Positions 13,579-62,900 of a stretch of 64,000 nt of DNA are shown here, piece by piece. The notes beneath the pieces are model-generated. The model was not told the origin of the DNA. It searched no databases and saw nothing but the letters and a program-made list of their open reading frames with translations. The position numbers and the translations under genes are program-made. Source of the stretch: Larus michahellis. Lineage: Eukaryota > Chordata > Aves > Charadriiformes > Laridae. Each line of letters opens with the position of its first letter. Position 1 is the first letter of the stretch. The stretch covers positions 811,001-875,000 of the forward strand of contig NC_133907.1 of assembly GCF_964199755.1 (NCBI RefSeq). The letters are read 5' to 3'.

Positions 13579-29189
<15,611 letters not shown>

Positions 29190-30675: not shown

Positions 30676-30780
30676 TTACTTCCTATATTTGCTTCTCCCT
30701 TGCTGTTTCGGTTCCCTGGTCCACTTGATCGTAGTTTTAGGAGAGTTACATATACGTAAATGAGTTCTGCCTCTGGCCAT
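30676..30780 (-). pseudogene. PIEZO relic block 17: C-terminal exon with frameshift
   Basis: One frame reads EAELIYVY, and another continues NSPKTTIKWTREPKQ to a stop at 30676-30678. PIEZO has YAKLIFLY then RSPETMIKWTREK and stop. One base is missing between the two parts. About ten extra residues follow the normal end. Confidence 0.87.
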
Positions 30781-32029
30781 TCTAGACAGTCAGTCTGGAG
30801 CGCTACCTGGTGCCAGAAACCGTTGCGGGAAACGTGTAGATGAGGAGTTATTTTCATTACTGACTCACTCCGACCACGGGAGCTAGTGGCAGAATGTTCT
30901 AACTTCACTGCTCTGAAATCAGGTCTTCAATCTCCATCCTGTAGAAACACTCTTCAAATTAATTCTAATTTTGAAATAATTCTGCTGGATTTCATTTGGA
31001 AGGCACTTTACAAAGCCATCTGTAACAAGAAATATCTAATATTAAAGAAATATAATACGAAATACCTGAAAAGCAAATGGGATAAATATTTAGGAAATAA
31101 AAAACTGAAAACTGGCCTAAATTTGCTTAAGCAGAGTAAAAGAAATCAACCCAGCAGTGAATAGTAAAAAGGTCTGATGCATCCTCTGTTTCAAAATACA
31201 AAAAAAAAAAAAATTAAGGCTTTTTCTTTTTCCAATTCCATAAAAAAATCCCTTTCTATTCCTGATGTACGTTATTGTTTCCTTCCGTTTGGACAAGAGG
31301 TCTGTTCTCTGGAGCAGATGCTTGGGACCTCCACAAGACAGTGCTTTGTGAGCTGCATTCACCGAATAAATGATTCTCTCCTGGGTTCCACAGAGCTCGC
31401 GCTGGGATCCGTCCCGTTAAGCCCACGGTGTTTCTTCACCCCCTAATGAGTAGAATTTTAGTTCCCCCAAGACCCGTTTCCACCCTCGGGGTTTACCTGC
31501 CCTTCAGGCACTGGCAGTTTCAGCTTCTGCTGCCACAGCCGCCCTGAGGCACTTGGTGTGAGACCCGGAGCTGGTCTGGGGAAGGGCAGACCCCAAACTG
31601 CCTCCGAAGCAGCAGATGCTCAGTGTCAGAAATTAACATGAGGGATAATTACCGAAGAGGAATAAGGCAGTGGCAAGCAGCGCAGCTGGAATCTGGTCTG
31701 TGCAGCTGGCGAGAGCAGATGGCAGGAGGTTTCCGATGTTCCCGCTGCGGCCGCCCCCGCCGAGCACCCCACAGTTACTGAGGGTTTGGCTTTAGAGTCC
31801 CTTCTGGGTGACAAACCAGCAGGTATTCGTGGGAAATGGTTCCAGACACCAGCGGCTGACCTCAGGGGATTTATGTGGCTACACCTGGTATATTCTGGCA
31901 CCATTTAAGCAACTTTAAATAGAAACACTCCGAGGCTGGGCCGTGGGCACCTGCAGAGTTTTGTGAAATCTGCTGGGTCCTGGTCCTCCACGCTGCCGGG
32001 TCCCCTGACCAAATGCTCGAAGATAACTC

Positions 32030-32215
32030 TGAAAGAGGGAGATTTAAATGAGATATTGAGAAGAAATCCTTTGCTGTGAGCGTGGTGAGCCCCTGGCCCA
32101 GGCTGCCCAGAGAAGCTGTGGCTGCCCCAATCCCTGGAGGGGTTCAAGGCCAGGTTGGACGGGGCTTGGAGCAACCTGGGCTGGTGGGAGGTGTCCCTGC
32201 CCAGGGCAGGTGCCT
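32030..32215 (+). mobile_element. CR1 LINE fragment, truncated at both ends
   Basis: Contains the CR1 3'-region phrase GGCTGCCCAGAGAAGCTGTG and the GTTCAAGGCCAGGTTGGA segment, then stops before the usual 3' tandem. It lies inside the PIEZO relic between blocks 16 and 17, antisense to it. Confidence 0.85.
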
Positions 32216-32379
32216 CTCTGGGTTATTTTGTAGGAATTAGAGCTTAAATTACTACAGCTGTGGCCTCAGCACTTTTATGAGGAGGTTGACAATTAAGTAC
32301 AAGCTAACGCACTGCCCCAGGAGGTCTCCTCCTTCTCCTCTCCTTCCTGGATCTTGCTGTTCCCTGAGGACGCCCGGTG

Positions 32380-32470
32380 GGAGCTGGCACAGGCAGCAGG
32401 TGAGTTCGCGATGGCCACCCTCTTTGGGGGCTGGTGGTCCACAGTAGGCCAGGCTGCTCTTTGTCTTGGT
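32380..32470 (-). pseudogene. PIEZO relic block 16: cap-domain fragment
   Basis: The minus frame contains KEQPGLLWTTSPQR, against PIEZO2 LEGNSNSLWTISPPS in the C-terminal extracellular domain. No other piece of the roughly 250-residue cap is recognisable. Confidence 0.5.
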
Positions 32471-33649
32471 GACAACCGTGTCCTCTGGCAGGGGTTTGCT
32501 GTGGGCTGTATGGCGGACTTGGGATGGCAGGACAAGGGTGATCTGCTGGCTTCCTCGTTAGAGCGAAGAGGAGTCGGTGGTTTATGGACTGTCTGAGGCC
32601 AACACGCTCGCTCAGGGAAAAACCTGTCTGTGATGTTTTCAACTTGTAAACCCTACCGCAGGAAAGGCCTTTGCTGACTTTGCTGCATTTTGCCTGGAGC
32701 AAATCAAGCCAACAGCATGTTTTACCGTACTTTGGGCCTACCAAATGCTGTCTGAGCTGGGGACTGGCGACAGACACATCGCCGGAGTTTTACTGAGGGC
32801 TCATTCCCTCGAGGAAAGATGGGCTTGGGTGAAGCAGTGCTTAGGAATTAACGGCTGCGGGGCAGTGCTGACCCTGTCTGTGTGGTGCGGCTGGGGGTGT
32901 GCTCCCCCCGATGCTCCGTGGCAGCACCCGCCGTGTCTCCCGCGCTGCTGGGGTGTCGGGGTGCCGGGGAGCTGCGGTGTGGGCAGCGAGCGCGGTGCGC
33001 GTCCAGACACTGGGGCTGTGCGTTGCGTCCATCCCGTGCGTGGTGTGCCGGGCTCACAGATGCTCCGAGGGTGAAGGGCACAGCGGTTTGTTGGGTCGTC
33101 GCGCGCAGCTGCAGTAACAGGGGTCCAGTCCTCGGCTGGGTGATCCGGCAAGAGCCTGTCGGGGCGCCCTGGGTGCAGCCCCTGCAGCAGCGGGGCTGCC
33201 TGTGGCCTGAGGGGGGGAATCAGCCTCATCCCTGACCAGAAACGGGGAGAGAAAAGCTATTCTGGGGCTGCCGCAGTCTGGCTGCCCACGAGGACAAACT
33301 GTTTCCCGCTGCCTACAGGGAGCGCGGGCTGGTGGGTGTTCGCAAATGCCCCCTCCTGCGTCTGGGACAGCATCTACTAAAGCCAACAAAATCTGTGATG
33401 TCAGAAGGCAGAAAGAAACTAAAATGTGACTTGCCGCGTCCACGTTTCTCGTTCTCCCTTACCCTTTTCCCATCACTTTCCTCCCAGCCGCTTTACACGC
33501 GGGACTGGGCAGCCTTCAGTTAGCCTGAAGGTTAAAGTCTCTTCGCTGTTGAGTTTTGAACCCGTAGTTGTGTGTCGTGCTTCGCTCAGAGGAACCCCGT
33601 ACCTGTGACCACCCCCATAGGGAGCCCTGAGGTGCCTGGGGCGGGTTGG

Positions 33650-33777
33650 TCAACCCGGACACCCACTGAAGAAGTGGCGTGAGGAGAAAAAGCGGCCACG
33701 CGGTACAGAGCAGTACGAGCCTGCGTTCTGCACCTCACAGACATTTTCCTCTCCTGCCCTTTAGGCTGAGGATACTT
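33650..33777 (-). pseudogene. PIEZO relic block 15: PQPKGQ exon
   Basis: Directly after a strong acceptor (AG at 33778-33779) the frame reads KYPQPKGQERKM, against PIEZO KYPQPKGQKKKK. The following inner-helix region has lost its hydrophobicity. SSVGVRVDQP still echoes SVAGVINQP at the start of the cap. Confidence 0.86.
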
Positions 33778-33860
33778 CTGCAAAGAAAGAAAATCTTAGT
33801 TAATTTGCCACAGCTGTTTCAGAAGTTGTTGTGAAAAGGGATTGCACAACAGTCACTCAC

Positions 33861-33990
33861 CTTCTTGGGGTCTCTCCAGCCTTCCGTGATGAAAATGTTA
33901 GCACATAAATCCCAGCAACACGGATCCAGCTGGAGAAGCTGAGGGTTGTGTCCGCTCAGCCCCACCTTGGCTCCCTTGGGGTGTTCGGGA
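33861..33990 (-). pseudogene. PIEZO relic block 14: exon with nonsense and 2-base insertion
   Basis: One frame reads RWG, stop, ADTTLSFSSWIRVAGIY. The next frame reads ANIFITEGWRDPKK up to a GTGAGT donor. PIEZO2 has DWVWTDTTLSLSSWICVEDIY then AHIFILKCWRESEK. The second Trp of WVW has become TGA (33956-33958). Two extra bases near 33903-33904 shift the frame inside IY-A. Confidence 0.9.
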
Positions 33991-35328
33991 CTTCTCCTCC
34001 CGTGGCTGCTGCGCGGGGCCCTGCCGGGGGCGGCCGCTCTCTGCGGGAGCTGCGTGATCCCACCCGCTTCCTGAGCGGGACAAAATGTCGGGCAAAGTAG
34101 AGTTTTGAAACATAGCCTTTGGGGCATGAAGACAAGCGCCTGTGTTCCAGGACCGTTCTAGCTGAGCCCGGGCATGTTTATCTCCTCGTGCTGATGCACA
34201 AAGCTGCTGCTCATCACGTTTGCCGCAGCAGTGGCCGGGGACCTGCTAAGAAAGCATCCGTACGAGGGAAGGGTCCTTTTGTGCTTACGCTGGGCTGAGT
34301 CAGGAGCTGCACAAAGCCACACCACACAGTCAAATTGATTTTTCTCCATTTGCACGTGTAAGGGATGGGATTAATACGTCTCATTCCTTGCTCCCCATTG
34401 TGGCTCATGGCCTGGAAATTCTGTTGCCTTGATGCCTGATGACTTCTAGGCTCCAAATGGGCAAGAAACAGTTTGCAAAAACTGCACTGTGGGATTGTTT
34501 TTTTGTTGTTTGTTTTTTTTCCCTTTCAAGTTTTCTTTCAAACACTTCTCTTACACAAGACCCACAGAGTTCCAGGCAGCGTCCACCCATATGAAACCAG
34601 ACATTTTTTTCCATAGTCTTTTTATAGATTTGATAATATTTAACTCAGCATGTATTAAAAAAGTATGGAGTACATAAAATTCATTATAAATGTCACCAAA
34701 TGGGCCAACGGCTTTTTAATATCACTGCCACAAGACTGTATTTTAACCTATTTCCTCTCTGGATCCATTCCAGTGGCAATTCCAGGAGGGGAATATATTT
34801 AGTCTATATTTACCTAGTCTGTTTAACTTTCAGTTAGTGTCTTTGGCTCATCCTGTGGCCGTGCTATTTTGGGATGATTTATACAATATTTACATTAAAT
34901 TCTGCTAATATTTCCTTGCCTCTTGAAGTCGGATTACACTATTTACATCTCAAAGGGCCGGGCTGGAGGCATAAGCAGCTGGTCCAGGCACCAGAGAGAA
35001 TTTAGCGCCGGGGAGGCTGCCAGAAGTGAGCCCGTGTGCCCGAGATACTCTTGGGGGGACTATTTAGAACGGGTCGGTCCCCCCTGAGGGAAGGGGAAGG
35101 TTTGCCATGGCAGCGAGCAGCGCGGTTGGTGTTGTGGGGTCAGACAACAGCATCCAGACCTTGCTTTTTTTTTTTTTCCATGAAGAATTTGTGGTGCACT
35201 TTCCATAAATCTCAAGCGTCCTGGGCTACTGTGCTGCGGGCCCTTTGTGGTTAGGACGGGGCTCCAGTTGCAGCAGCTGAACGCCGCTGCTGTTCTGAGC
35301 CCTGAAATAAGGGTGGACGCGGTTGTAC

Positions 35329-35479
35329 CTGCCCCGCAGCGTTGGCTGGGGACGGCCTGGGCTCTGGCCGCACTCCGTACAAGTCTGACAAACCAAAACA
35401 GATGCATTTGACCATGTGCCGAAGCTGAGCCACGTGGTTTCTGTTAGACCTCCTGGTAATGAGCGGAGCATAGGATTTG
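35329..35479 (-). pseudogene. PIEZO relic block 13: VAQL exon before the pore
   Basis: Acceptor (AG at 35480-35481) and GTACAA donor are kept. The frame reads RNHVAQLRHMVKCICFGLS, against PIEZO2 QNLVAQLWYFVKCVYFGLS, and then diverges. Confidence 0.88.
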
Positions 35480-35957
35480 CTGGAGTATTTTAAAGAATTT
35501 TGTTTTAAAGAAAAAAAAACAAACCTACTTAAAAGTAACAGATTTGACCTCTTTGTTAAGGCTGAATCAAAAGGCAAGCAGCCAAACAGAGCAGCTGTAG
35601 AGGAGAGGAAACTCCCAGCGTGTCCCCGCGTTAGGGCGACGCAGTCAGCTGCGGGAACCAAGCGCTATGGCTTGTTCAGGCCTCTCTGTGATGCGCTACG
35701 AGCAGTGGGGACAACGGCCTTGGGTGTGTGATTTAGCCTTTTATGAAACTGAGAGACAGGTTTTAAATTCAAATCAAAGCTTGGGTGCTGAGCCGTATTC
35801 CTTAAAACAAAAAAAATCAATTTTGGATTCAAAACAAAAAATTAAGACAGAGTACATTCAGCGACCTTTAATTGAACTGCAAACATGCATCAGAGTTAAG
35901 AGCAAAAACCAAAAAAATTCCTCTCCATATGTACAAAAACTTACCTTCGGGACTGAC

Positions 35958-36131
35958 CTGTGAAAAGCCCGGCAAGCCCCGGAGGAGACCAAAGCGCACG
36001 GAGCCAGGCGCCTTCTCAGCCCCGGCAGTGTCTGGCAGCACGGATGGTTCTTCTGCATCCATGGCACAGCACGGTTCAGCAGTCCAGGGAAAAAAATCCA
36101 AACTGGGAAAATATGTGACTACCACTGTTAT
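35958..36131 (-). pseudogene. PIEZO relic block 12: FFPW exon, open
   Basis: Acceptor and GTCAGT donor bound 58 open codons. The start, ITVVVTYFPSLDFFPW, matches PIEZO2 VAIVVKYFFQFGFFPWN. The second half aligns column by column with PYHPPNIIGVEKKEGY (here PSVLPDTAGAEKAPGS), although the hydrophobic end has eroded. Confidence 0.88.
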
Positions 36132-36513
36132 CTAGAGAGGGGAAAATAAAACAGAATGATCTGGAGTTTTGGACTATAATGATTCTCAAAGGAATCTGCA
36201 GATCTTTTAAGTATAGGGGACGGTTCCAAAGACATGCTTAATGGTTTGAAACTCTGGAAAAGAAGTCTTGCTCTGAAAGCCAGTGAAATTTTAGGGTGGA
36301 TAAATATTTTCTCTTTTTACTCAATTTACTTCTCATTTTCAAGTCAATGAATTCTCTACAGTTCCTGAACAAAATGTTTTAAGTCTTATATCCTTGCTAA
36401 TCCACTCTAGCATTGGTCATAAAGGACGTTCATTGTACTTTAAAAATGTCTCATTTGCAAAGTCACTCACTTCAATACCAAGAAATACTTCAGCAGTAGT
36501 AAGAAAAACGTAC

Positions 36514-36759
36514 CTGTATATAAATAATAGCTGTCATCCAGAAGGATTTTGTTGGCCTTGGAACTGATAAAATGACCCAGAAAAAAAAATAAAAATGGGC
36601 AGAACCAAAGCGAGAATTGAAGCAGAAATCCTGTGATTCAGAATGATCACGAAATAGCGACGTCTGCCTGACTTGGAGGCGCCGATACCATTGTACAAAG
36701 CAAAGCACAAGGCAAACTGGCAAAACTCTGCCTCCTCCAGTTCCTTGTCATGAAATATC
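36514..36759 (-). pseudogene. PIEZO relic block 11: pre-pore helix exon with poly-T frameshift
   Basis: The exon has an acceptor (AG at 36760-36761) and a GTACGT donor. The first frame reads IFHDKELEEAEF and later YFVIILNHRISASILALVLP. The second frame continues WVILSVPRPTKSFWMTAIIY. PIEZO2 has MFHDDELEESEKF, CYFVIILNHMVSAS and WAMLSVPRPSRRFWMMAI. The frame is broken at the nine-T run (36581-36589). The exon length, 246, fits a net shift. Confidence 0.93.
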
Positions 36760-37133
36760 CTGAACCACAGGAGGAGGGGGGGAGTTCAATTGAATCATTG
36801 TTATTTTCTAGGAAAAGGGGCGTGAGATTGCTAAGCAGCATTTTTATCCCAAAGGATTAAGTAAACCAGACCAGGGGATGGCATAATGGAACCTCTAAAG
36901 AACTGCAGGTGTGAGGGGAAACAGCACGTTGACCAAGTCTTCCGTAAAAGCTCTCGCTGACTCAGTCACTGATAACCACAGTCCAGGATACTGGATTTAT
37001 ACCGGCCTGATTTATAGGAACTAAAAGGATATGAATTAAATCATCCGAATTGCACCGGCTTGGTGACCCCTGAGTTACCAGGGAGTGTTTACCCTTACAC
37101 ACCCAACAGTTGCCAGATGACTGTGTCAAAAGT

Positions 37134-37294
37134 TTAGTCTCCTTTAACAGGCCCCAGCGGCGCTGGGCGGTGGGAGACCGCGGAGCCGGCAGACGGGCCG
37201 TCTTTGGGGCTGCCTTCAGCTGCCACCTCTTCTGCCGCTTCATCTTCACTCTCTTCTTCAGCTCTGTGGCTCAGATGTGCTCTTTTGAACATCT
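37134..37294 (-). pseudogene. PIEZO relic block 10 (weak): acidic exon ending in a stop
   Basis: A strong acceptor (AG at 37295-37296) is followed by an open frame with RAEEESEDEAAEEVAAEG and a stop at 37134-37136. It could be a PIEZO intracellular loop, but it could also be an unrelated minus-strand terminal exon. Assignment is by position only. Confidence 0.35.
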
Positions 37295-38094
37295 CTGAAC
37301 CCATCAGGAAGAAAAGAGCAGGCGGTGGGGACCTCGGGCAGAGCTCGGGGGCAGCTCTCTCCAAGCGGCAGGTCTCCCCCCGCGTGCCCCGGCTCCTCCT
37401 CGCGCTCGGCCTCGGGGAGGCCACAACCACCGGTTCACATTACTCTAACAGTTCGGAAAACGGTGGAGTTCAGAGTTACGTAGATGATTTAGAAGGACAA
37501 TTCTGCTCAAAATCCAAAGGAACTGTGCCTGTACATGGTGTGCGTGCCGTTGGACATCTTAGTGCACAGGTTTAACTTGTGTTTAAACAAGACAAGTATT
37601 TTAGTATGAGTTAACTACAGCATAATGGAACATACGGTTAATGGTTTTATTCTCTTTATTAGTATCTTAAATGTAATTTTAATATCATTTAAGGCAGTTA
37701 TTGAGCTCTAAATAGGAACATCTGGGAAGAAAATTATTTTCCATGTACATTGAAGTATGTCGGGCAACAGTAATTTTTGGGAGGGACAGAGCGGAAAATT
37801 GTGCACATCTCTCTCAAACACAGGCGCTCTCCCTGAACGAGGGCAGCTCTCGGTGCAGATACCAGCGAGCAGTGGGTGCCGTCCTTGCCGCGGGCAGAGA
37901 CATGTCCCCGCGGGGCGCGTCGTTTCCACTTCCACCGTCATCTTTCCTGCCAGTAACGGCTCGTGGGACTGTGGCTTCCCCCAGGTGGGCTCGGCCAGGG
38001 CTGCCACCTTTGCTTTCTGCAGACCCCAGGGACAGAGGCAGAAGGTGACGCTGCTGTTGGACCTGCGTCTTGGAGACGCTGCGCTTCCTCTGGC

Positions 38095-38166
38095 GGGGTG
38101 AGAGGGCCAGCGGTTCGCTTCCAGCTCTCGCGTTTCTTCGCTCTTAGTTTGATCAGTTTCATCCTC
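38095..38166 (-). pseudogene. PIEZO relic block 9 (weak): acidic loop exon
   Basis: After an acceptor (AG at 38167-38168) the frame reads EDETDQTKSEETRELEANRW. PIEZO2 has an acidic loop ending EEEETSDLRNKWHLV. The match is mostly compositional plus position. Confidence 0.35.
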
Positions 38167-40754
38167 CTGGTTGAAAACAGAACTAAGGCGACAACTGCCC
38201 TAAACCAGGTGTGCGCTTTATCTGAATTCAGTGTCTTACAAATGCTGTCCTTGTAACAATGCCGCAGCAGAGTCTGCAACTTCATTGTTGTAGAAATGAC
38301 CAGAAAACTCAGATTTGACTTAGAAATTACTTAAGAAATGAGAAATGTTCATTTTTTAGTCTAACTTTATTTTTTCAACTAGTCAAATACTTTTATTTTA
38401 TTCTGTTGTGTTTTACAACATTTTTTATTTCCTGTCAAGCCAGCCCTAACAAATAAATCCAGATTGCAAATGTGGAAGTATTTTCCCCGAAGGCGTAAGG
38501 TTAAGACCAAAGCCAAGGAGAGGCCGTTGGTAGGCCTGGTGTTCAGAACACCAGCCGTTTGTGTGGTATGGCCACTCACGTTCACACACATGACTGACTT
38601 CCCCATCTGACTGTCACGCTCTTTCTCATAAGACTGGGTATCCCACCAACATGCTTCTTTCTGAATCGTACTTCACAAGCCATTTCATAACATTCAGCCA
38701 CTCTTCATATCTCTCTGAAATACTGCTGGTGACAGCAAAATAGCATTCCCTTTGTCCTCAACTGTGGACAAACTCACAAACCTAATCCCAAGCCCATTGT
38801 ATGAATATCATCAGGGATGGGGATGGGTCTTAAACCCGTATTTTGTTGGGTATCCCTTTGACAAGTAAGGTATAAAGGCTGTGAGAGTAACAGAGGCTTT
38901 CATATCTCTGGCCAGCAGGAATTTATCTTATGTCTTTTAAAATGGACCCCCCTCCTATGAACACATGTAAGCTTGCAAGCCAGGAAATAATAAAGAGACA
39001 ATAGTTCATCTGAGTATTTATACTTCTTCTGATATTACTGTTATTATTTTTGTGGGGCGCAGCTTGCTTTGGACCTGGCTGGTATTTGGAAGCTCTCCAT
39101 CCCGAGATCTAACATCCAAAACAGGAAGCGGATCTGACAGGCACACGCAATGCTATAGGCAAACACAGAACAACATCATCAAGGCTTGGCTCTGGACCAG
39201 CTTTGTGTGTGATGTTGAAACATTTGGTATTTAGCTTAAGGCTTCTGCAAGGAAACATCTGTGAGATTCTGCAGCAGATAACGCAAAGCGTTTGATCAAT
39301 CTTTGTTCACCCAGAAAGGCATGAAGAAGGCTTCGGTTGGTCTTAACGGTTAAAAAAAAAAAAAAAAGGAAGATCCATCCTCTCCACCTGTAACAGCTCC
39401 CTGGCTCTCTCCTGCAGTGCGCCATGTTGGAGCAGGACCGCGGTAGCTGAGACCAGCCAGGGCTAAATCATGACCGATCTCCACGTTGCCTCCTGCCCAT
39501 GTTCTCATTCAAGCTTTACTCCTGTCCTCAAGTACTTGCTACTGGAGGGAGGCAGAAAACAGAAGTCAAAAGTCATCTGGAAAGACAGAAGAGCCAGAAA
39601 GGTATGTCATGGTTTAGCTTTAGCTGTTGGATTGCACTTCGGGTCTCTGCAAAGTCAGGCAGGCAAAGCCATTCAGCCAGGGTGGAATGGACAGGCCGGG
39701 GAGACCCCCTCCGTGGGTGAGCTGTTAGCTCGTCGCGTACAACACCTCAAACCAGTTTCTGTCCTTGTAATGTAGGAACACAGAGGTTTCACCAAAGGAA
39801 AAAGATCTGTTGGTGAGACATGCAGAACTGCCCACAAACGGGCACCTTCCTTCACAGTGCTCTGACACCGGCGACAAGTGATGGGAGATGCTGCATGAGT
39901 TGACTTCAGCCCTGGGAAAAGTCAACAGGAGTCTTTGCAATGGAAGACGGATGTTTACAGCCGCATACCCTGCATGCGGTTAGTGCTTAGCAACTGGTGA
40001 TTTGGGGGTATAATAGAAGGAGCTCACTGGGGTCTGTTCCAAGATGCTTTCTGGCCCCTTCTTGTCATTAGCTAGCAGTAGCAGAACTCTGCCAACTGCG
40101 AACTGAGCTCCAGAATATCCCTTTTCCCTTTATTCTTCCCTGTTTTGAATATTTCATTGCAGCGGCTGCCACCTTCTGCCACTCTTTGGGTGCTATGGAA
40201 CGGTGGCTGAGTGCTGGTGTCCGGGCTGCGCGTGGGCAGGGCGAGGACTCGGGATCCAGCTGTGCTAGAGGAGGAACTCGGTCCCTCATTTTGCCTTGTA
40301 GAGGGAAAGAAAGGCTGCTGATGGGAGAATCGTTTACAACAGTGGTTGCTATTTTGTACACTTGGGCTACAGATTTCCAGAATGCACCGTGTGTCCTTTG
40401 CTTCCAGTAGAACGTGGTGTGCAAAGAGACTTTTTAATTGTGGCCATAAAGCTGTCAGGAGCATAATACTGTCATCTCCATTGTGTTAGCCCCAAAATAA
40501 TTGTGCGGTTCTCCAAGATCAGTGCAAAATAGTCTCAGGTGTAAAGAAATCCTAAAGCACACTAAGCAAGCAGAGCCAAGAAAGCTGAGGACGGTCAAAA
40601 CTCACAGCGTCTTCAATGCTGTCCTGGGCTTTCCTCTGCCAGGAAACCAGACTCACTTTACCCATCTTGGGGCCGTTCTTAGGAACAGGAACTCAGTGAG
40701 AACTGGATGACCCATCACCCATTCCCAGCCTGGAACACGTGCGATAGCATGATG

Positions 40755-40841
40755 TGGGAAGCTCCTCCTCACAGTTCTGCAGTAACGACAGCAACTAACA
40801 GATTTGGGCCAGTAACGGGGTAATTTCCAGGAATAACATTT
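40755..40841 (-). pseudogene. PIEZO relic block 8: decayed blade exon
   Basis: After a good acceptor (AG at 40842-40843) the frame reads KCYSWKLPRYWPKSVSCC, against PIEZO2 YEWWRKILKYFWMSVVIY. This is the next exon expected after block 7, but the hydrophobic helix has been lost and the phase does not follow from block 7. Confidence 0.45.
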
Positions 40842-41529
40842 CTGGAGTTGTGTAATAAGGATCCTGAGGGGAGAGGGCCTAACGCAAAGTGAACTAAGCA
40901 CTAAGATAGCGGAAAAAATATTATTTGTTTCATATATCTCCTTTCTCCCCAATTTGCTGCCACAAAGGTCTAAACAGGATTTTTGTTTTAAAGAATCTTT
41001 CATACCCTCTTTATCGCATGCAAATAATGGATTATTTAACCTACTGACTGAACCAGAAGTCATTTAAATAACGTCTAGCCAACTGGCAAATATGTTCCAG
41101 CTCTCTTTGAAAGAGAAAAACAAACAAAATAGAAGAATGAAAGTTAGTGCAACTGTGTTTTCAACAAACCAGTCAGCGCCATTCCTGCTAATATTGCAGG
41201 GACCTCCTTCTCTTCGTAAACACCGCAGCCTGGTGCACAGCAGAGCTTGGTACTGCTTGGCCCTCCTGGGACATTGTTCCAGCAATCTTTCAGTTATTAA
41301 AATAAGGCTCCTACCTTGAGGCAGGGTAAAACAGTCATCGCACGCCCAGAGCCCTCCGCGCCAGCCTGCAGCATCAACAGGAGCAGATTTGTGCAGCGTA
41401 ATGGTGGAAATGAAGCTGAAGTTGAAGAAACCTTCCCCCGCCCCCAACAAAATTCAATAGAGATGTAACAGTTTACTCCATCTGAAAATCTGCGTTAAAG
41501 CACACTATTAATTTGATTTTGCTGCTTAC

Positions 41530-41708
41530 TTGGTACCAAGCCACAGAAACCAAAAGAGCACAGTGTAGAGTATTTCGTAGGCCACAGAGCTGCCAGTGAG
41601 GCTGGGAATTAACAACATGGCAGCAGAGAAATAAATCCAGTATTTAACTGGCATTCCCTTAAGCAGAGACAAGGATTTCCAGAAGAAGATTATGTGGTTT
41701 GTCCCCTT
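41530..41708 (-). pseudogene. PIEZO relic block 7: blade exon, open, with both splice sites
   Basis: The polypyrimidine acceptor (AG at 41709-41710) and GTAAGC donor bound 59 open codons. They contain KGMPVKYWIYFSAAMLLI and then VAYEILYTVLFWFLWL. PIEZO1/2 have IKYWIYVCGGMFFFVSF and VMYKIIYMVLFLFCVAL. This is one of the two most conserved blocks. Confidence 0.92.
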
Positions 41709-42423
41709 CTGTAATAAGAAGAAAACAAATCTGTTGGGCACGATGCTATCACTGTACCGTCTTGACACCTTTTTTATAATTCTCCCTGCCTGTGGCTGCA
41801 AATGCCTCTCTTGGTAGGTGACTTATCTTGCTTTAAACATCGTCACCTAGCAACAGGGCCCAAGAACGCAGAAATTGCAGTCCCATAGAGCAGTTGCCAC
41901 TCCTGAATGCATGTACCACGCTCTCCTCTACTGTGCATGGCGGGCCTCTGCTTGCCTGCCCAAAATCCACGTACTCAGAACAGCAGCCAGAGCGAGCTGA
42001 GCTGCTGGTAGAAACTGAGGTCTGTTCTTGGCAGCAGAAACTTCTGCTTCAGGAGCCGCGTATGGTCCTTACGATGCTCTGTGTTGCTCCCGGAATGGCT
42101 GGAAGGTCTTTGCTGTGAGCATCAAGGCATCGCCCCTCTCTGCCCCACGTCTTGCTGGGAAGGTGGCGACATCCGAGGAGTCTGTTCTCGTTCCAACACT
42201 GAAGCAAACGCGCGGCTGAGCCGTTTGCAGAAGCACGGACAAGCCAGGTAGCTGTCTGCACAAACCAACCGCTCATGTTAGCGCAACTGTTATTTAATAA
42301 CAATATCCTTGGAGTATTTTGATAACAGGTTCCAGCCTTAGTTTAGCAAGACTAAATGCTTAACTGTATTGCTAAAGAGAAGGTAAGAGAACCACACTAA
42401 GATGAACTTGTTTGTTTCCTCAC

Positions 42424-42529
42424 TGTTCTCATTCAATATCGCTTCTTGGAAAGATTCTTGTCTATCCTTCATATGTCTCTCAATCACATATTGCCTTAGC
42501 AACAGCCAGCCTGTGAACGCATAGAGCAT
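42424..42529 (-). pseudogene. PIEZO relic block 6: blade exon, open, with both splice sites
   Basis: An acceptor (AG at 42530-42531) and a GTGAGG donor bound 35 open codons that begin MLYAFTGWLLLRQYVIERH. PIEZO2 has ILFTITFWLLLRQHLTEQ at this place. The charged tail after the helix is also of the same kind. Confidence 0.87.
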
Positions 42530-43409
42530 CTGCAACTAAACCACATTTGCCCCTTATTTTTTCCATTGAACTCGTAGAGGTACACAGGCAACACCTTTCC
42601 TTGTTTGATAATGGATAGAGATGTAAATCCTTACAAACTATCAAAACAAGTGCAAAAAAGGAGCATACTTTAGAGGAGATGTCTGTCCCAGTGACTGTAT
42701 CTCATATTTGTGTAAATTAAGGAGCTCAGGTTGCAAAGACTTTGGAGGCAAGAGCTGCTTTGGGTCGGTATTGCACAGAACGTTGTGAGGTCTGGGCGTT
42801 GTCAGAAAATGGGGAGCAAAGTCTAATTGCTGTACTTCAGTAACAACAACTGACTCTCTTCCCTGACAGCTAATCACGTTAGCGTAGGAAGAAGAAAGTT
42901 TAACTTGGCTGTAGAGCACAACCCCCTCTGAACCCCACCTCCCATGTTGAAGTGTCCTCAACAAATGGAATGACCCGTGTTTCCAACACCATGGCGTTCT
43001 GCCGTGCGGACTCCAGGACTGGCCGTTCACCACACCGGGCTCTCTTACAAAGCCAAATTCTTGTATACGATAAACTGATAGGCCTGGAACAAGTTCCTGG
43101 GCTTTAATGGCAAGAACTGGACTTTGCCATTAAAGGGGGGGGGGTTGAAAACATACACGTCAAACTGCGCTTGTATTTCACGAATGCCTCTGCCAAGTAA
43201 TTTTGGTTCGTCCCTCGTATCGTTCCTACATAGCAGGTTGAGGGAGAGTACAATACAGTGCAAGAATAAAAACACAGTTTTATTGTTCTCTCACAGGCTG
43301 GCTCACTTAAGTAGGGAAGGGGAGAATGTGGAATTCCTACTTTTGTGCCAAGAGGCATGCTTGGCAGTCAGTGTGGTTTTAAACCAAAGCTGATGAGAAC
43401 TGATTGTGA

Positions 43410-43645
43410 GGTTTTAGGGAAGAATTCCTCTGGGGAGATATTTAGCCCTGCAAAGAAGCTTAGGGCAGGCAGGATGTTCCTGTGAGCAGGAAGGGAATGG
43501 GGAACTACGCAAGACACGATGCCCCTGGTCATGAGCCATCCAAATGATGCAGGACCAAACCAGCAGAACAAAACAAGTCCAACAGCTGTAATGTGCAATG
43601 CTCCAAATTTGCAAGGCAACAGAAACACGCAACGTAAGAAATGCT
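43410..43645 (-). pseudogene. PIEZO relic block 5: blade exon with frameshift
   Basis: Very clear match. The first frame reads IWSIAHYSCWTCFVLLVWSC, then IIWMAHDQ and SSPF, against PIEZO2 AWSITYHSWLTFVLLIWSC, TLWMIRN and SSPF. The alignment then continues in another frame with HRNILPALSFFAGLNISPEE, against GNLLLILQYIWSFELPE. The frame change falls at about 43479-43498. Confidence 0.87.
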
Positions 43646-45814
43646 GCCATTTAAATTTCAAGAGGCCTTACAAGCAGATATATCTGAAAACCTATGTGCT
43701 ACGTTATCCCTTTTGATTCCCTTGTGCGAAGCAGTTAAGGATTAACCAGCTCCGAAGTAAAAACCTTGTGTGTCTGCATCAAACAAATGGGCATCCAACA
43801 GCCTGGCTTGGAGTGGCTGTGAGGAATGAGGTAGGACAGATCGTCCTTTAGGAAACCAGGGGCCAGAGCCCTTTTAAATATGTTTCTTGGCCCTTCTGGC
43901 CGTGGTCTCTGGCACATACAGAGTTGTGCACCCAGTCCCTGTGCCTTTCATTTTCTGTTCCAAATGCCTTTATTGTCCCATTTCAGTAGGAAGCAGGTGT
44001 GATACTGGAAGGTACATCAAAATTACCTGCAAATGTTATACAAATTATGATAAGTTAGTGTGTTACAAAGTCAGGTTGGATAGACTCAACTGACCCGATG
44101 AGCATGTTTTATTTGTATGTTCTTCATTAACATGAAGTTCTTGTAAATGACAGCCAAGTGGGGTTTTACTTTTAGAGTTCATCTGGCACTGGAACTTTCT
44201 CTTTCAATCGTATATTGCCTGGTGACAGTCAAACAGTGAATGGATATTACACCTGGGGTGAAGCCAGATGCGCTTCCCTTCCCTCTTGGCCCCCTCTCCC
44301 CCCAAGCCCCCAACCTTAAGATAGAATCATTTGCTTGCTCGTGTTGGTAGTACTGAGGGAAGTAAGTCCCTCTTACAGCATGTACATGGCTGGCCAATAT
44401 TGATCCGTGAACAGCAGGCGAGCTGCCTTCGTGATTCTGTGTTCCCCAAGGCTCGAGTTTACAGCACAACCACCCCTGTTTTTAAGATGGAATTAGGTGG
44501 CGACTGTGCTTTGGTCTGCGTCACGCTTAGTCGTGTAATTATCACTCTTAGAGCATGGTACCTGATAGAGGAGGGCTGTGTCCTTTGCCGGTGTTGGCAG
44601 GCGCCGTGCAGGAAATGCCATGTACGTGCGGTGATGAGGGACCGTCCTGACGGCGTCCCCTCGCAAAATGAGCCGCCTAAAAATGAAACACAAGAGTATC
44701 GTAGGTGCAGCCGCGTCTTCCCACAGTGGTTTCTGGTGCGCTGGTACAGGAAGCTGGAACTGCTTTCTAATGACTCACTGCTCCTGCGTGTTGGCACGGC
44801 TACCCAGGTGGTGGTTTGCTGAATATTGGGTTTGTTCGTTAAGAAACTCAGATGGGTGGTGGGGAAAAAGCAGGAAAGGAAAAACAATAGCTCTCAATTT
44901 CTCTGAACACTTTTGTGCTGATAAGAGATAACGCTAGTCCACCTTATTCTCTTCATTCTTGGTCAGACGCAGCACATTATCCTACTCCAGACTTCTCTGT
45001 TGGTCACATTGGGACTTCTTGCCTGCACTCCTGCCTTAGGAACCACCCCAGGATATCACATTCCTATAACCCAGGTACACACCGTGCGGTACCAATGTTA
45101 CTCGCTGAGAGCAGCAGTACAGATTCACCAACACTCCTAAAATTTTTTTCTAATTTTTTAGCAGTCCTGTAGAAAGCAGGAGGCAAACATCAGCATGAAG
45201 AGTAACACAAAACCCAAGCTGAACAAGGCTTAAAATGTTTTGATGCACTTTCTCATGAGAGCAACGGTGATCCAGTCTGGACGTGGTGACACGCAGAACG
45301 GGACACAAGGTCTCCAGAGAGGCCAAGGCACACCTGAGTCTCTAAATGCTGTGTCGAACACTGGCAGCTGGGGTGGAAGAGCCCCTTCTGGGACATCGCT
45401 TAGGCTACACGATGAACCAGACAGAGCAAAACTTCTCTTTAGAACTATTTCTTTAGTTTGTGCATTAGCTGCAAACAAACTTTATCACAATTGCATTTTT
45501 GCTATTTGTTGGAGTTTAAATTCAGGTAGTGTAATTATACATGTACCTCTTTGTTCTTCTCCTCTTCCTCCTCTTCTTCCTGATCTTCAGAATTAGATGG
45601 TATTTTGGCATCTTAGGGCTTTGTCAGATTTGGGTTTGTTTTTTTTTTTCTTCCAGATTCTTGTAACTGTGATGCTACTAAGAAACGTTCCAAAATCAGG
45701 AATCAGTAGGCAGAAAATATTACCAGCATTGACTCTGCTGAGCCTGCAGAGCAGAAAGCAGTGCCTAAAAATGTACAGCTTCATCATTTTCCATGTAGTC
45801 TTTTGAATAATTAC

Positions 45815-45975
45815 CTTGAAATCTTTCCTGCTCCCCAGAAACGTAACTGCAGTAATACAGGAGAAGAGCACCGGCGTGCTTTAAGACAAAGCAAATGGCA
45901 CCACAGTAATCAAAAGTGCAATAAAGTTGCTCCCGTAAAGCATTGGTTCTCTCTTCCAAGGAAAGATTCAATCAG
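45815..45975 (-). pseudogene. PIEZO relic block 4: blade exon with intact donor
   Basis: The minus frame reads VLKHAGALLLYYCSYV, against PIEZO2 YHHANPILLLVMYYTLA. The block ends at a GTAATT donor whose intron begins at 45814. The other two frames are also open over part of it, so the exact frame is uncertain. Confidence 0.45.
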
Positions 45976-46879
45976 TCCTTTCAGGGGGATTATTACAATT
46001 CTTAGAGAAAAAAGGTCAGGTAACCTAATAGATAGTGCAATATAATACCTTCATTTTATTATTTTTTTATAGCCCACACTGAATCTGGTTTGGTGTATTT
46101 GATACCCCACTTCTTTGTACTGCGTTTCAGAAGTAGAGCCATGCTTCGTTATCGCACCTTGCGACTCCAGCATCCCAAAACCAACTCTCCCAACTGCAGT
46201 CTAGCAGATAAGAACAAACAGATGTGCTTATGAACTGATATGTCCCTATTTTCAAATCCCCAAACACATGCCTAGCGTAGGCCTATGCCTCCCATTTCTG
46301 CCTTCAGGTTTTTGTAAAGGGAGCCTGAATTACGATATATCCTGCTCTCACACACCCCAATTAATTTGCTGTTGGCTTTGGTCAGGACGGCGTCCTTTTA
46401 CATCGCAATAAAAAGAGAATGACAGAAGCAGAATCTGGTTTTGGTTCAAGGAGTTTCAAGAAAGTTCTGAAGAACACGGTGATGTTATCTGCAGTCAAAA
46501 TGACGCATTTGTCTCTCTACTGGCAATTCTGGGAGTTCAGTGGAACTGCAGTCTGTGTTTAAATGCCTTGTGAATCAAATCATTACAGAAAGGGCTTCAG
46601 TCGCGATTAGAAACGTCGCTGAACTGTGGCACCTGGGCCCAGCCCAGGTAAAAATGCCTTTAGATGGAGAAGTGGGATCAGCATCCAAAGCGCATTAACT
46701 TGCGGGTGGTTGGAGCAAGGCTATCGGTGATGGCACTTTGCTGCAGTAAATGGGCTTCTGAGGCTTTTACTACCAAGTAACCAATTGCCATGACGAATGC
46801 CCTTACCGTTAGGCAGCAGGCAGTGCCAGGCAGTCTGAAACGGCCCTGGGTTGTGAGGAAAGAGAACTGCTGAAACCGA

Positions 46880-46950
46880 TTGCCCCGAGCGAGGTGTGGG
46901 TGCCTCCTGAAACAGCAGATACTGGCTTTGTTGTGCCAACAGAAAAATGT
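46880..46950 (-). pseudogene. PIEZO relic block 3: blade segment
   Basis: The minus frame reads FLLAQQSQYLLFQEAPTP, against PIEZO2 LYLYQFQFFQEAVPP. The FQEA core and spacing are kept, but the rest of the exon is lost. Confidence 0.5.
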
Positions 46951-47392
46951 CTATTCTATAAAGCAAAACCTATGACGAAGCGAGCGCCTTGGTCTGAGGA
47001 TTTAATAGGCCGCGTCACGGAGGTGCACTTCCCTGGGGCGCCTGCGGCACGTCCCCTCCTCAAGCACAGTTCAGAGAAGACCGCCGCAGAAGACCCCTGC
47101 GGGGAGGAGACTCTCCCGTCTGCCGGCACCACAGCAAAGCGCTCAAGTTAAGGAAATAACGATGGCCCAGCCATCTGGGCTCCTCAGGCAGCGCATCAGG
47201 AGGGTCCGTAAGAGCCCAGGAGATCGAGGAGATCGGTTACCGCTACAGGCCCAGGACACAACGCTCCACTGAGTGGGCTAGTAACCAGCGCGTAATTAGG
47301 CGGTATTGCTCATCAGGAATTTGACAGAGGGCTTCCGCCTTTCGCTGTGGTGGCTGCAGGACTTGGACAGGCTGATATGAATGCAAACAGCC

Positions 47393-47415
47393 TTTTTTTT
47401 TTTTTTTTTTTTTTT
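47393..47415. repeat. Poly-T tract (23 T)
   Basis: An uninterrupted run of T on the + strand. Shorter runs are at 22036-22050 (T) and 39352-39367 (A). They mark length-variable sites and possible assembly errors. Confidence 0.95.
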
Positions 47416-48324
47416 CACAATTCTATTAACAAGAAGCTTTGGGTAAACTTTGACTTTAAGATAATGAGAGAGGGTTTAGTTTGATGAAGACAAGCGATGT
47501 TTCCTGGGTTTTCTTCTGCCCCAAATGTAAAACATCTCTTATTGAAACCAGAGTGGTTCTTGCCTAACCAATGAAAGTGGAACTGAGCTAATAACCTTTA
47601 ATGAACAAAACCTTTATTTTAAAATAATCAATAGCACATGAAAAACCCTGAAATACTAATTTTGTTTCCTCAGATACAAACCTGACAAAATGCCAGTTTA
47701 AAATAAAAAAAGAACTGGCACATTTTGTAGCACAACAAATTTTTATTGTTAATTTTTCTTTCAAGGTGTGGGTGTGTAAAGGGTGTGGATTGTTAATGAA
47801 ACAGAGAAGCATTTATTTCAGCTGCCTCTTCAGTGTAGCAGGTATTGCAAATAGCGCAGGCAGAGGGTGCTGCTTTCAACCATGGGTAAGTTGCGCCAAA
47901 AAAAGCGACGCTCATAAATTAGGTCATATATTTGTGTTGTCCAGTTGTTTCATGTACAAAGTTGTACTATTATTTGCAAAGTTTAATAAGCTGGTATTTT
48001 ATTTAAGTATAACCAAGGGTATATTGTACTGACTGTCCTTCAAAACAAGTTTCTAAAATAATAAGCACACGAAAACAAGTCCATATCAGATAACTTAAAA
48101 AAAGCTATTTGAATTTAAAGTAAGTTTCTGAAATTTATTATAGTATAACAATGGGAAATGTTATTCTTTTCCAGGAGAGCTTTCCATGCTAAGTTCAGTC
48201 ACATACAAGAACTGTACGAATGCTAAAGCTCCAGCAGGATAAATGGAGTTATACATGATATACTAAGGTTTTAACCATGTACATTTAATGAGTAAGGCTC
48301 AGTTTTAGGAGAAGAAATCCTTTA

Positions 48325-48415
48325 TTAAAGAAGAAATCCAACTGCTGATGAAGGTGAGGTGCAGCCAGTGTCCCTGTGACAACAGCATGACTTTTTCACA
48401 GCAGCTTCCTTTCCA
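48325..48415 (-). pseudogene. PIEZO relic block 2 (weak): blade segment
   Basis: Nucleotide-level resemblance to the PIEZO2 stretch GKVVVTILLGSSG...LTSSVYFF. The translation is GKEAAVKKSC then TSPSSAVGFLL and a stop. The position between blocks 1 and 3 is what collinearity predicts. Taken alone it would not be convincing. Confidence 0.35.
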
Positions 48416-49454
48416 AGCATCCTCGTTCTCTCCCTCCCTCTCTTTTTCTCTGAAGTTATCTACAAGAAAATTCTTCTGAAAAAAATAACATCTTCCAAGG
48501 TTCTGAGAAATAAATAGGTCAGTGAGTTCCTGAGCACTGGAGCGTTTCTGAGGCTGCCGTGAATCGAGTTCCCTCTCCTTCCAGAGGGATCTGCCCAGTT
48601 CTTTTGTCCAGACCATGCCTCATCTTCCCACACAGCAACGCTGCTGGGACATTTATCAGGCAAATGTACCTCCTAAAAATCATATTTCTAAATTTCACAT
48701 CTTTTTCCTTTTTTTTAACTTCTCATCTCTATAACATTTAGTTACATTTTAAATACGTGGTTCAATTTCAATCCTGCTTCATCTTCGTCGATCTTTGAGT
48801 GATTTCTTGAGGAGTAAGGTCTGCTCACCCTTCCCATCACATTGCTGCGTTATTCTATCCGTGAATAAATTGTCTTGTTTGCTATTAGGGCAAATGACAA
48901 AACTACTCTGAAAATCAGCCCAGAAGCTAAATTATTCTCCGTGATGGTTATGTCCCTCCCATGGTTGGTGTAGGAAACCTCCCCGACTGCGGGCCGGCAG
49001 CAACCCTTTACCTTGCTCAGAAAAGGGGCAGCAACCTTGCAGTGAGCGGTTCTGTGGCCTTCCCTCCCTTGAGTTCTCTCAGATGGAAAGCACAAACTGT
49101 GTCAATCGATTCCTTTGTGAGTACTTTAAATGTATACATTTCTAATCATCAAACCAAATGCCGGAATTTGTGTTCTGTCCAATAATCCTCATTTTCTCTG
49201 AAACGGGAACTATTGATCCCTTATGTTTCACTTTAATCCAGACTCCTTATTGCTGAACAAGTATTCTGAAACGTGGCTGTCGGATCATTCTTTCTAAATT
49301 AGAGTTGCTTTGCTTGGTTTCTTTCCAGACGCAAATAACTAGTCAGAACAGAAGTGTGCTTCTAATTGCAAATAAAATTCTAATTTTTCTTTTTTTCATT
49401 AATGTTCAAAAGTCTAATTCTAGAGTTTAAGATGAATGCAGACGGTCTGTATAC

Positions 49455-49550
49455 AACACATCCTTAGGTGCTTTAAAGAAAACTCTAAGCAGCAACCCAA
49501 GGATCGCAGAGGCAGCAGCTGCTTGGATTATCCACCAGAAAGTTAATTCC
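49455..49550 (-). pseudogene. PIEZO relic block 1: N-terminal blade helix
   Basis: The minus-strand translation has IIQAAAASAILGLLLRVFF followed by KAPKD. This lines up with the PIEZO2 segment around DIGMFIASLTIWLLCRN and KPVTD. An upstream frame at 49560-49660 may be the preceding segment. The donor is weak. Confidence 0.55.
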
Positions 49551-59682: not shown

Positions 59683-59688
59683 CGCACC

Positions 59689-59935
59689 ATGGGGCTGTGC
59701 TACAGCCTGCGCTCCCGCCTGGCCGCCGCGCACCCCTCCGCGCCCTACGGCGGCCAGGCGGACGGCCCCCCCCCGGCGGCGGCGGCGGAGCCGGGCGACC
59801 CGCAGGTGCGGCACCGGCTGCGGCAGGACCTGGTGGCCAAGGAGCGGGCGGACAAGAAGCGGAGCAAGAGCATCGACAAGACGCTGAAGGCGGAGAAGCG
59901 GGAGTACAAGCAGACGCACCGGCTGCTGCTGCTCG
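59689..59935 (+). CDS. GNAS: Alternative first coding exon of GNAS (XL-alpha-s-like)
   Basis: Gs-alpha couples receptors to adenylyl cyclase. This exon supplies an N-terminus of 83 residues (last codon split) ending THRLLLLG, the invariant junction before AGESGKS of exon 2. The ATG has an ideal context (ACCATGG). It starts MGLCYSLR: Gly2 and Cys4 suit lipid attachment, and the same eight residues begin the long GNAL (XL-G-olf) isoform as I recall it. A Pro/Ala-rich linker follows, then KERADKKRSKSIDKTLKAEK. That resembles the mammalian XL-alpha-s exon end (KRAEKKRSKLIDKQL). The usual Gs-alpha exon 1 (MGCLGNS) is not in the window and should lie downstream. The exon is far shorter than the mammalian XL exon. 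GNAL is the alternative, but synteny with STX16-NPEPL1 favours GNAS. Confidence 0.82.
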
Positions 59936-62900
59936 GTGAGCGGGGCGGGAGCGGGGCCGAGCGGCAGGTGCGGGGCGGAGCGGCAGCCGCCGCCTCCCGG
60001 GGCTGGCAGACGGAGCCCCGCCGCGGTGGGGGCTTGCGGGCACACAGCGGGGGGGGCAGCGGCATCCCGCGGCGGTGCGGCGGGCGCTTCCCCCGCCGGG
60101 CGGCCGTTGGCGCGGAGGCACCGCGGGGGGGGGGGCGGAAGGGCTCTCTCGGCCGGTGCCGCCCCCCTGCGCGGAGAAAGCCCGAGTTCCGATACGCGCG
60201 TTAATTTTCTGCCGCCGCCCCGAGCACACGCCGGAGGGTCCCAGTGGGTCGGTGCGGGGATCCGCGGCCCCGGGCGGGGGATGCGCCTGCGGCGGCACTG
60301 GGCTCCCTCCAGAGGAGGAGGACGAGAGAGGAACCGTCCCGCTGTCCGCCGCGGGGCCGGGTGCCCGGTGCCGGTGCGCGGTGCGTGAGCAGTGCGGGAT
60401 GCCCGGTGCCGGTGCGGGGCGCGATCCCAGCGCAAACCGCCGCAGGGAACCGCGCGCCGGCCCTCGAGTGAGCCGGGAGTTGGGGATGCCCCCGCTCCCC
60501 CCGCACCTGCAGGTGAAGCACGGTGTCCCGCACGAGGGGGCTGCGAAACTCTGAGCGTCTTGCAATAACGGAGAATATTTTCAAATGTCTGCAAATGACT
60601 TGAGAAGGCTCCCACCCCCTGAGGTGCGCAGCAAGGTTTGGCCCTGGTCTTCTCAGTACATGTTTGTACCTTGTAATAGAGGAGCTGGATTTTGAGGAGC
60701 TTTAGCAAACAATATTGGGCATAGTTTTCTGAGTCACAGTGGTCAGAGTTTTTATTCTAGCAGTACAGCTTCTTTTGACGCAGTTGTAGCGATGCTGGTG
60801 TTCATAAAGGTGTATTTTCTTCTCGGGGGAAGGGGGTTGAGCAGCACTTGTGTGAAGACTGAAGCTCGTACGCTGTGACTGCACGGGTGAGAAATCACAC
60901 CTCTCACCAGCCTGGCGTTCCTTTCCAGCACAGGCTCCGCTCTAGGAGTCTTATGGATTTTTTTAACATATTTCAAGTTTTTTCTGTAGTGAACAAGTGC
61001 TTGAAGAAGGATCTGTGAGAATTGCTTTCTCTTTGTAGTTTAAATAATTAGGAGAAAAAAAAACAGTAGGGCTAATTTTGATGTTAATCTGCAAGTCATA
61101 AAGGCTATCTGATAGGCTTCTGTATTTGCAGTAGGCAATATTTCAGTTGCCTGTTTTTTTAATATTGCTTCTAACACGTTGTGCCACAGAACTGTTTTTT
61201 GCAGAAGTGACATTAAACATTGAGTGGGTTAAACAATGTATCTTAGCAGTTTAACATTATCTATGGTGAAGCCAGCAGAGAGAGCATTCTTTGTCAAAGT
61301 ACTGGTTTATAAATCTGATGGATATGAGCCAGTGTTATGCTGGCACTGGTTTATTATATTTATTTCAGCCTGGACTTGAATAGCAGGAAGTCACTTTTTG
61401 GCCCTCTTGTAAATCTTGGGATGCCCGAGAGACCCATTTCCCTGCTCCTTGCGCGGGGACTGTCTGTTTTCCCGTTAGCTTCCTTCCCTTGCTGCTTCTC
61501 TCCTGCATCCCGCTCTCACTCTTACTTTGTGAATTTTTTATTTCTAAACTGGAATAAGAAGTCTGGGGTATACTTGGTTATACTTTATATGCAGGTATCG
61601 CTGCCACAGCTGAGTGTCTCTGTGCTGAGATGCTCATGGATTACATGTGCAAATAGTGCAGGACAGTAAAATTGAGTGAGGGGGGCAGGAGCATCTAGCT
61701 AGGGCTTAAAGCTGCAACTGAGTCTTTTTCCAAGGAATGGAGTTAGGATGGGCGGGGAAAAAAAGGCTGAAGAAGTACAGAGCCAGGGATATCCCCTCGC
61801 TTGGGCTTGAAGGCTCAATGGCAAAAGCGGCAATAGGTACTCGTGGTTTTCTACTCATGCTCCCGACTTCTCAGGCTGATGTGCTCCCGCAGGAGAATAT
61901 CGCTGCCGTGGACAGCAAAGGACAGCACCAGTGGCTGCGCTTTCTTTGGGAGTAATGCCATTTAAATGAGAACTGCACTGATGCGTCAGGTCAGGTCTGT
62001 CCTCAAGACTAAATTGTTTTTAACACATGGCTGCGTTACCTTGTATATGTTCAAGGGCTGCAAACGCAGAGCGCGTCCTCCTGTCGCGTGCTGGGCTGTG
62101 TGGAGCGCGGGGGTGACAGAGTCCCAGGTGTCACAGCCTGTATGTGACGTATCTGACGCTGGGTGCTCCGGTCTGTAACTCAGGTCGGGGCTCTCCAGCA
62201 CCACCAGTACTTCTGCTCTGTTTGCAGTTCCTTTTTTGGAAGGAAATTTCCTCACTTTATGGGAGTGCTCAGGGATGTGCAGTGCATGGGTGCAGTTACT
62301 CAGTGGATAGCTGCTCCCGCTGTCTTACGTGATTTTAAGAATTTTTCATGGTTTTTTTTCAATCCTTTTTTCACCACCACAAATGTATAAGGTAAATTCC
62401 AGATTCCTGAAACCTCTCTTCATTTCAGTAGAGCAAAGAACTTACACCTGCTCTATTTTTGAAGCAATACTCTGACTTTGTACTTGCAGGAGAGTAATTT
62501 TTTTGCTTTGTTTTTGTGAAAGGAAAATGCACAATCAATCAGGTGCAATCTCATTGGATTTTGTTTAGTGTACTGTACAAGTTGCAACTTCAAGATTACA
62601 ATCACTGTTACGTTGGCAACATAGTGTGAGTTCAGGGTTACTACTGGGTATTGGAGGGTGAGTTTCAGTGCGTGGGGGTTGTTTTTAATTTGAGAACAAT
62701 CCTGGCTCTAAAATTGAAAGTGTGTGCTTATAGGGGAAATGATTTTAAACTGCCATAAAACAATTCCATTCTGCGTGTGCTTTCTCATTGGTGACGATAA
62801 CGTGGGTCTTCCTCTATTTATTTTTTTTTAAAGACTTTAAAGTATAATTCTACTTAAATTGTGGTTTGTGGGTTTTTTTATCTTACAACAAATATTATAT

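Follow-up and report, generated by a model that had tools for sequence, protein, structure and literature searches.

PIEZO proteins are major force sensors of animals. As far as the accessible parts of the published papers go, humans have two PIEZO paralogs and the zebrafish copies are 'due to genome duplication' (PMC13419627), zebrafish carries piezo1, piezo2a and piezo2b with redundancy between piezo1 and piezo2a (PMC10801085), and one PIEZO duplication is placed in vertebrates (PMC6659173). No description of a third vertebrate PIEZO was found in the titles and abstract openings of the literature searched, a search that lay outside subscription papers and supplements; two papers on genes absent from birds (PMC4290089, PMC12954441) have a main text without the words piezo, FAM38, GNAS and NPEPL1. 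Here, a 64-kb stretch of the genome of Larus michahellis was analysed (the window; its position 1 is position 811,001 of contig NC_133907.1, hereafter C16, and window coordinates are used below). It very probably contains a unitary pseudogene: the remains of a third PIEZO channel gene of vertebrates, ohnologous to PIEZO2. STK33 of neognaths is reported to be a unitary pseudogene (PMC4509753), like the relic an old gene dead in place; it is, however, a different gene, and the relic is that of a large ion channel.

The relic runs on the minus strand from ∼48,936 (exon 1) to ∼30,700 (last codons), near full-length and with its introns kept. When the window was searched with four intact PIEZO proteins by plain tblastn (E ≤ 0.01), 14, 13, 11 and 10 high-scoring segment pairs (HSPs) were obtained, 48 in total. 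All of them lay on the minus strand and 0 of 269 pairs were out of order, which is the collinear chain that a first-pass annotation of this window had anticipated from such a search. The human PIEZO2 query gave 10 HSPs (10/10 minus, 0/45 pairs out of order, best E 1.7e-15) and the third-PIEZO protein of the turtle Pelodiscus gave 14 (14/14 minus, 0/91 out of order, best E 2.6e-18). The same four queries reversed gave 0 HSPs in the window, as did the PIEZO queries in 200 kb of neighbouring DNA (C16:611001-811000), and the best E among 22 reversed or locally shuffled queries was only 0.12. The stop-to-stop stretch 36534-36785 by itself matched PDB structures of PIEZO2 (E 3.5e-9) and PIEZO1 (E 2.7e-4).

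A frameshift-tolerant chaining aligner run over 29500-52000 scored 807.5 on the minus strand versus 141 on the plus strand. Reversed proteins scored 157-169, five of six other strand or region controls 125-160, and the sixth, from a region overlapping the relic, 270; 20 dinucleotide shuffles gave 125.5 ± 11.5 with a maximum of 149.8. The score rose to 1432 when 11 intact third-clade proteins (see below) served as the profile, versus 345 for the plus strand and 351 for the reversed protein. At a low jump cost short noise pieces were chained (1550 versus controls of 994 and 1050), so the cost was raised and the extra pieces were not used. Chance similarity was ruled out by the reversed and shuffled queries, the aligner controls, and the flank and reversed tblastn searches. 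Being significant, collinear and spread over most of the protein's length, the similarity demonstrated that the minus-strand block belongs to the PIEZO family. All nine peptides named in the first-pass annotation were recovered on the minus strand, where it had placed them and in N-to-C order. Its strand and strict order held, but its seventeen blocks became 30 chained pieces plus three weaker N-terminal ones; its extent of 30676..49550 was nearly right, the recognisable gene (∼48,936-30,700) falling slightly short of 49,550.

The gene order on C16 is RAB22A, VAPB, APCDD1L, STX16, NPEPL1, relic, GNAS, and another contig of this genome, C2, carries GNAL, PIEZO2, NAPG and APCDD1. The relic is arranged head-to-head with GNAS, as is PIEZO2 with GNAL, and on each contig the more distant APCDD1-type gene has the orientation of the PIEZO gene; the intervening genes are NAPG on the PIEZO2 side and STX16 and NPEPL1 on the relic side. 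APCDD1-family matches were confined to C16 and C2 (6/6 matches, 11/11 candidates scored). Because APCDD1L-relic-GNAS mirrors APCDD1-PIEZO2-GNAL in order and orientation, the relic was assigned as the ohnolog of PIEZO2. That the two blocks are a pair from one duplicated block is well supported; they would have split in the early vertebrate genome duplications, an origin favoured because the third clade includes a holocephalan member. PIEZO2 (6kg7, 9vee) thus resembles the relic in full-length collinear homology and in its surroundings, since each stands head-to-head with a G-alpha gene and is followed by an APCDD1-type gene of like orientation, but it is alive, on another chromosome and in the sister clade. 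Between the turtle third-PIEZO and human PIEZO2 the identity is 52%.

Mammalian GNAS-AS1 is imprinted and lies head-to-head with GNAS. The relic is placed likewise, and part of it might have been put to a new use, such as regulatory DNA or an antisense RNA at the GNAS locus; position and orientation are what speak for this, and it is considered improbable. The preferred explanation is that the remnant of the third PIEZO would now yield no product and only drift.

It was then asked which PIEZO the relic represents. An initial protein search had been uninformative on a third gene, with only primate-like PIEZO2 rows among the matches listed. A database search with relic pieces, read with a PIEZO2/PIEZO1 profile rather than a third-clade profile, ranked proteins annotated 'piezo 2-like' highest, from turtles (440 bits), crocodile (414) and lizards (412). 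Lower among the best 120 of 858 rows were other squamates, amphibians, lungfish, coelacanth, sturgeon and teleosts, and two marsupials at ranks 61-62. These 120 rows further included PIEZO2 proper, from sharks, Callorhinchus and Polypterus. Significant matches are already obtained with PIEZO2 and PIEZO1 queries alone, as would be expected if the relic were what is left of a duplicated or misplaced PIEZO2 or PIEZO1 of the bird itself. However, the plain tblastn bit sums on the window favour the third clade (turtle 598, crocodile 560 and lizard 479 versus human PIEZO2 367 and mouse PIEZO1 189), identity on the same columns is 0.52 to the turtle third-PIEZO versus 0.39 to PIEZO2 and 0.37 to PIEZO1, a third-clade-specific stretch is present at 43.3-43.5 kb, and the bird's PIEZO2 and PIEZO1 sit elsewhere in the genome.

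For the IQ-TREE analysis, 36 proteins chosen from 293 found were combined with mouse PIEZO1 and the relic over the 783 columns covered by the relic; pieces scoring <60 were excluded, leaving 782 residues versus the 1,087-codon path. PIEZO2 formed one clade (100/98), and its sister was a third clade (100/99) with 30 rows, comprising a holocephalan, ray-finned fishes, coelacanth, lungfish, amphibians, sauropsids, platypus, marsupials and four placentals. Branching inside it roughly follows species order, with some forks open. The relic joined the sauropsids (99/98) with a branch length of 1.51. Approximately unbiased (AU) tests rejected the relic with PIEZO2 (p 9e-11), with PIEZO1 (p 2e-42) and with the mammalian third-clade rows (p 0.008). 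The relic therefore belongs to the third PIEZO clade and is neither PIEZO1 nor PIEZO2; a copy of the bird's own genes is very improbable, being refuted unless the long branch wholly misleads the tree. Misassembly of the bird's own PIEZO2 was rejected separately: its last exon, 98.8% identical to human, is on C2.

The chain read with the third-clade profile comprises 30 pieces over 45,751-30,700, with 1,087 codons, of which 537 are identical to loggerhead turtle; several pieces are weak. The path is interrupted by 10 stops and 22 frameshifts (Table 1). There is no open reading frame for the blade, anchor and cap domains, owing to stops, frameshifts and some exons no longer recognisable, and the relic itself cannot make a channel. 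Splice signals, read by eye at several exon ends and covering a subset of the joints, survive, for example ATACAG/GTACGT, CCCTCTCTAG/AT, AAGAAG/GTGAGT and TTTGCAG/AAG, the last two flanking the joint between ...WRDPKK and KYPQPKGQ. Since introns are kept and splice signals remain at several exon ends, the whole gene decayed in place; a processed (retro) pseudogene can be dismissed, the pieces being spread over 18 kb in gene order.

In the genome, a Piezo_cap family search gave 6 matches, on C2 and C4 only (5/5 candidates scored); PIEZO2 is on C2 and PIEZO1 on C4. When the crocodile third-PIEZO was searched against the genome, 20/20 matches fell in exons of PIEZO2 (C2) or PIEZO1 (C4) and no intact third copy was seen among the 18 of 364 candidates scored. 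An intact ortholog should outrank PIEZO2 and PIEZO1 exon matches. Because PIEZO1 and PIEZO2 are present, introns are kept, the lesions are disabling and no intact third gene was found, the relic was classed as a unitary pseudogene. Among models within the length filter, there were 0 bird rows in the best 120 of 858 of the relic-piece search and 0 in the best 120 of 2,332 of a search with a marsupial protein; placental rows also numbered 0 in the best 120 of the former. A neutral-decay simulation gave 240, 155, 115 and 85 million years (My) since death at 1.2, 1.6, 2.0 and 2.5 substitutions per thousand sites per My, figures that rest on assumed bird rates and one identity value and are good to an order of magnitude. 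The death of the gene may thus fall on the avian stem or early in avian history (crudely 85-155 My ago, 240 at the slowest rate). As a separate observation, PIEZO1 at C4:2.045-2.055 Mb is very compact, with open frames of up to 467 amino acids (aa) around its exons, near the end of a 94.8-Mb contig.

The decayed third PIEZO that the first-pass annotation proposed between NPEPL1 and GNAS is thus borne out by homology, collinearity, splice signals, stops and frameshifts, a distinct clade, and PIEZO1 and PIEZO2 located elsewhere. Several points weigh against this assignment. The pieces at 37-38 kb, 31-33 kb and 30.7 kb and the N-terminal ones are weak alone and rest on the chain; the last exon (IKWTRE), for instance, has a non-significant E of 5.6-5.7 by itself. 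The branch of the relic is very long, and its place within the sauropsids is open, grouping with crocodile not being rejected (AU p 0.18). The AU-tested groups were named after inspection of the tree, and a third-clade profile guided the alignment of the relic columns, giving it a lean towards a third-clade result; the preference is nevertheless independent of that fitted alignment, because the plain tblastn sums and the search read with the PIEZO2/PIEZO1 profile lack that lean. The relic itself was not listed in the crocodile-query search, so other decayed copies could be missed at 18 of 364 candidates scored. The position adjacent to GNAS is known from this bird genome alone.

Intact third-type proteins were found in turtles, crocodiles, lizards, frogs and coelacanth, the five groups in which the first-pass annotation had suggested looking. 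Contrary to its side remark, mammals are not limited to PIEZO1 and PIEZO2: the marsupial-protein search (best 120 of 2,332) listed proteins of platypus, of seven marsupial and four placental species, and of axolotl and Xenopus, and all nine mammalian rows placed in the tree (9/9) fell inside the third clade. Among the matches listed, two of the seven marsupials are represented by short models (2,056 and 1,672 aa), and the placental rows are six, of 2,216-2,670 aa, from tenrec, reindeer, treeshrew and armadillo. Third-clade loss in placentals looks patchy. By the tree, the relic's orthologs are the proteins named, by database annotation only, 'piezo-type mechanosensitive ion channel component 2-like' in turtles, crocodile, squamates, amphibians, lungfish, coelacanth, platypus, marsupials and some placentals; unlike the relic, they are intact, and the third-clade members outside this bird are full-length PIEZO proteins. 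Also intact are the teleost 'component 2' rows of the same clade (Mugil, Astyanax and others).

All five PIEZO Pfam domains were present in 3/3 intact relatives tested. In the 14 third-clade rows examined, the anchor motif, the inner pore helix, the MFEELP constriction and the MIKWTRE tail were largely kept, mammals showing drift and teleosts and crocodile minor changes. From their family membership, the third-clade proteins are probably mechanically gated cation channels, and since they mostly retain the motifs of pore, anchor and C-terminus, the living third gene would have made a PIEZO-type channel of this kind. In the placental proteins (tenrec, reindeer, treeshrew, armadillo; 2,389-2,670 aa) FEELP was found changed to FDELP, QEELP or HDQLP.

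We lean, with moderate confidence, towards a broader scenario in which jawed vertebrates began with three PIEZOs. The third, the PIEZO2 ohnolog beside GNAS, would be alive in most sampled lineages, including platypus, marsupials, tenrec, armadillo, treeshrew and reindeer, as PIEZO2 or PIEZO2-like, would probably include zebrafish piezo2a, which in bone is redundant with piezo1, and would have been lost in birds and, independently, in most placentals including humans. With an ancient third paralog still present in many vertebrates but defunct in this bird, its loss can serve as an experiment of nature on the sensing of touch, blood flow and bone. The finding also raises the question of what teleost 'piezo2' studies say about mammals. 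Orthology, naming and loss dates are now directly testable in existing genomes.

Table 1. Features of the PIEZO relic and its neighbours in the window (a slash marks an exon joint)
Feature	Position	Strand	Remarks
Relic exon 1 (NNLASGLIFRVVLSFALIA)	48880..48936	-	Pelodiscus third E 0.008, 14/19 identical; no ATG at expected start
Probable N-terminal relic exon, residues 45-88 of Pelodiscus third	46805..46931	-	GT at 3' end; weak
Relic exon 'LSRVNAGNIFCLLIPDFGTF'	45544..45757	-	AG before, GT after; Crocodylus third E 1e-7
Relic exon(s)	45164..45308	-	chain only; 2 frameshifts on path
Relic exon, third-clade-specific stretch	43338..43639	-	identical: turtle 54/99, crocodile 55/99, human PIEZO2 28/99
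Relic exon WLLLRQYVIER	42395..42532	-	chain and tblastn
Relic exon KGMPVKYWIYFSAAMLLI	41527..41709	-	GT after; chain and tblastn
Relic exons WLCLPDF; DF*LLFSASLQ*QVLEDRSKA*	39348..39719	-	three in-frame stops; chain and tblastn
Best relic exon, YFVIILNHRISAS...SVPRPTKSFWMTAIIYIQ	36511..36785	-	E 1e-18 to 2e-15; one frameshift; donor ATACAG/GTACGT
Next relic exon	35945..36131	-	acceptor CCCTCTCTAG/AT; chain and tblastn
Relic exon HVAQLRHMVKCICFGLS	35386..35613	-	chain and tblastn
Relic exon ADTTLSFSSW	33860..33964	-	stop and frameshift; donor AAGAAG/GTGAGT; chain and tblastn
Relic exon KYPQPKGQ	33639..33786	-	acceptor TTTGCAG/AAG; chain and tblastn
Probable cap-domain relic piece	32427..32488	-	chain only; weak
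Last relic exon AELIYVYNSPKTTIKWTRE	30700..30770	-	chain only; one frameshift; 13/19 identical to PIEZO2
NPEPL1 (neighbour)	13579..29186	+	
GNAS XL-type alternative first exon (neighbour)	59683..59973	+	MGLCYSLRSRL...KKRSKSIDKTLKAEKREYKQTHRLLLLG

Within the window GNAS is represented by the XL-type first exon only; its body, at C16:919770-1006637, starts beyond the window (window 108,770). The start of the XL-type exon resembles the XL form of GNAL, as if the exon predated the GNAS/GNAL split.

Very large feather/beta-keratin arrays were also observed in this genome of 1.41 Gb, at C22:6.41-7.74 Mb, C28:1.66-1.85 Mb and C2:168.6-169.1 Mb, with at least 150 keratin-family matches scored of 386 candidates. 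Feather keratin matches, which together with this family count mark the host as a bird, were up to 93% identical to a chicken sequence, and the C28 array contained many near-identical pairs in opposite orientation at ∼5.2 kb spacing.

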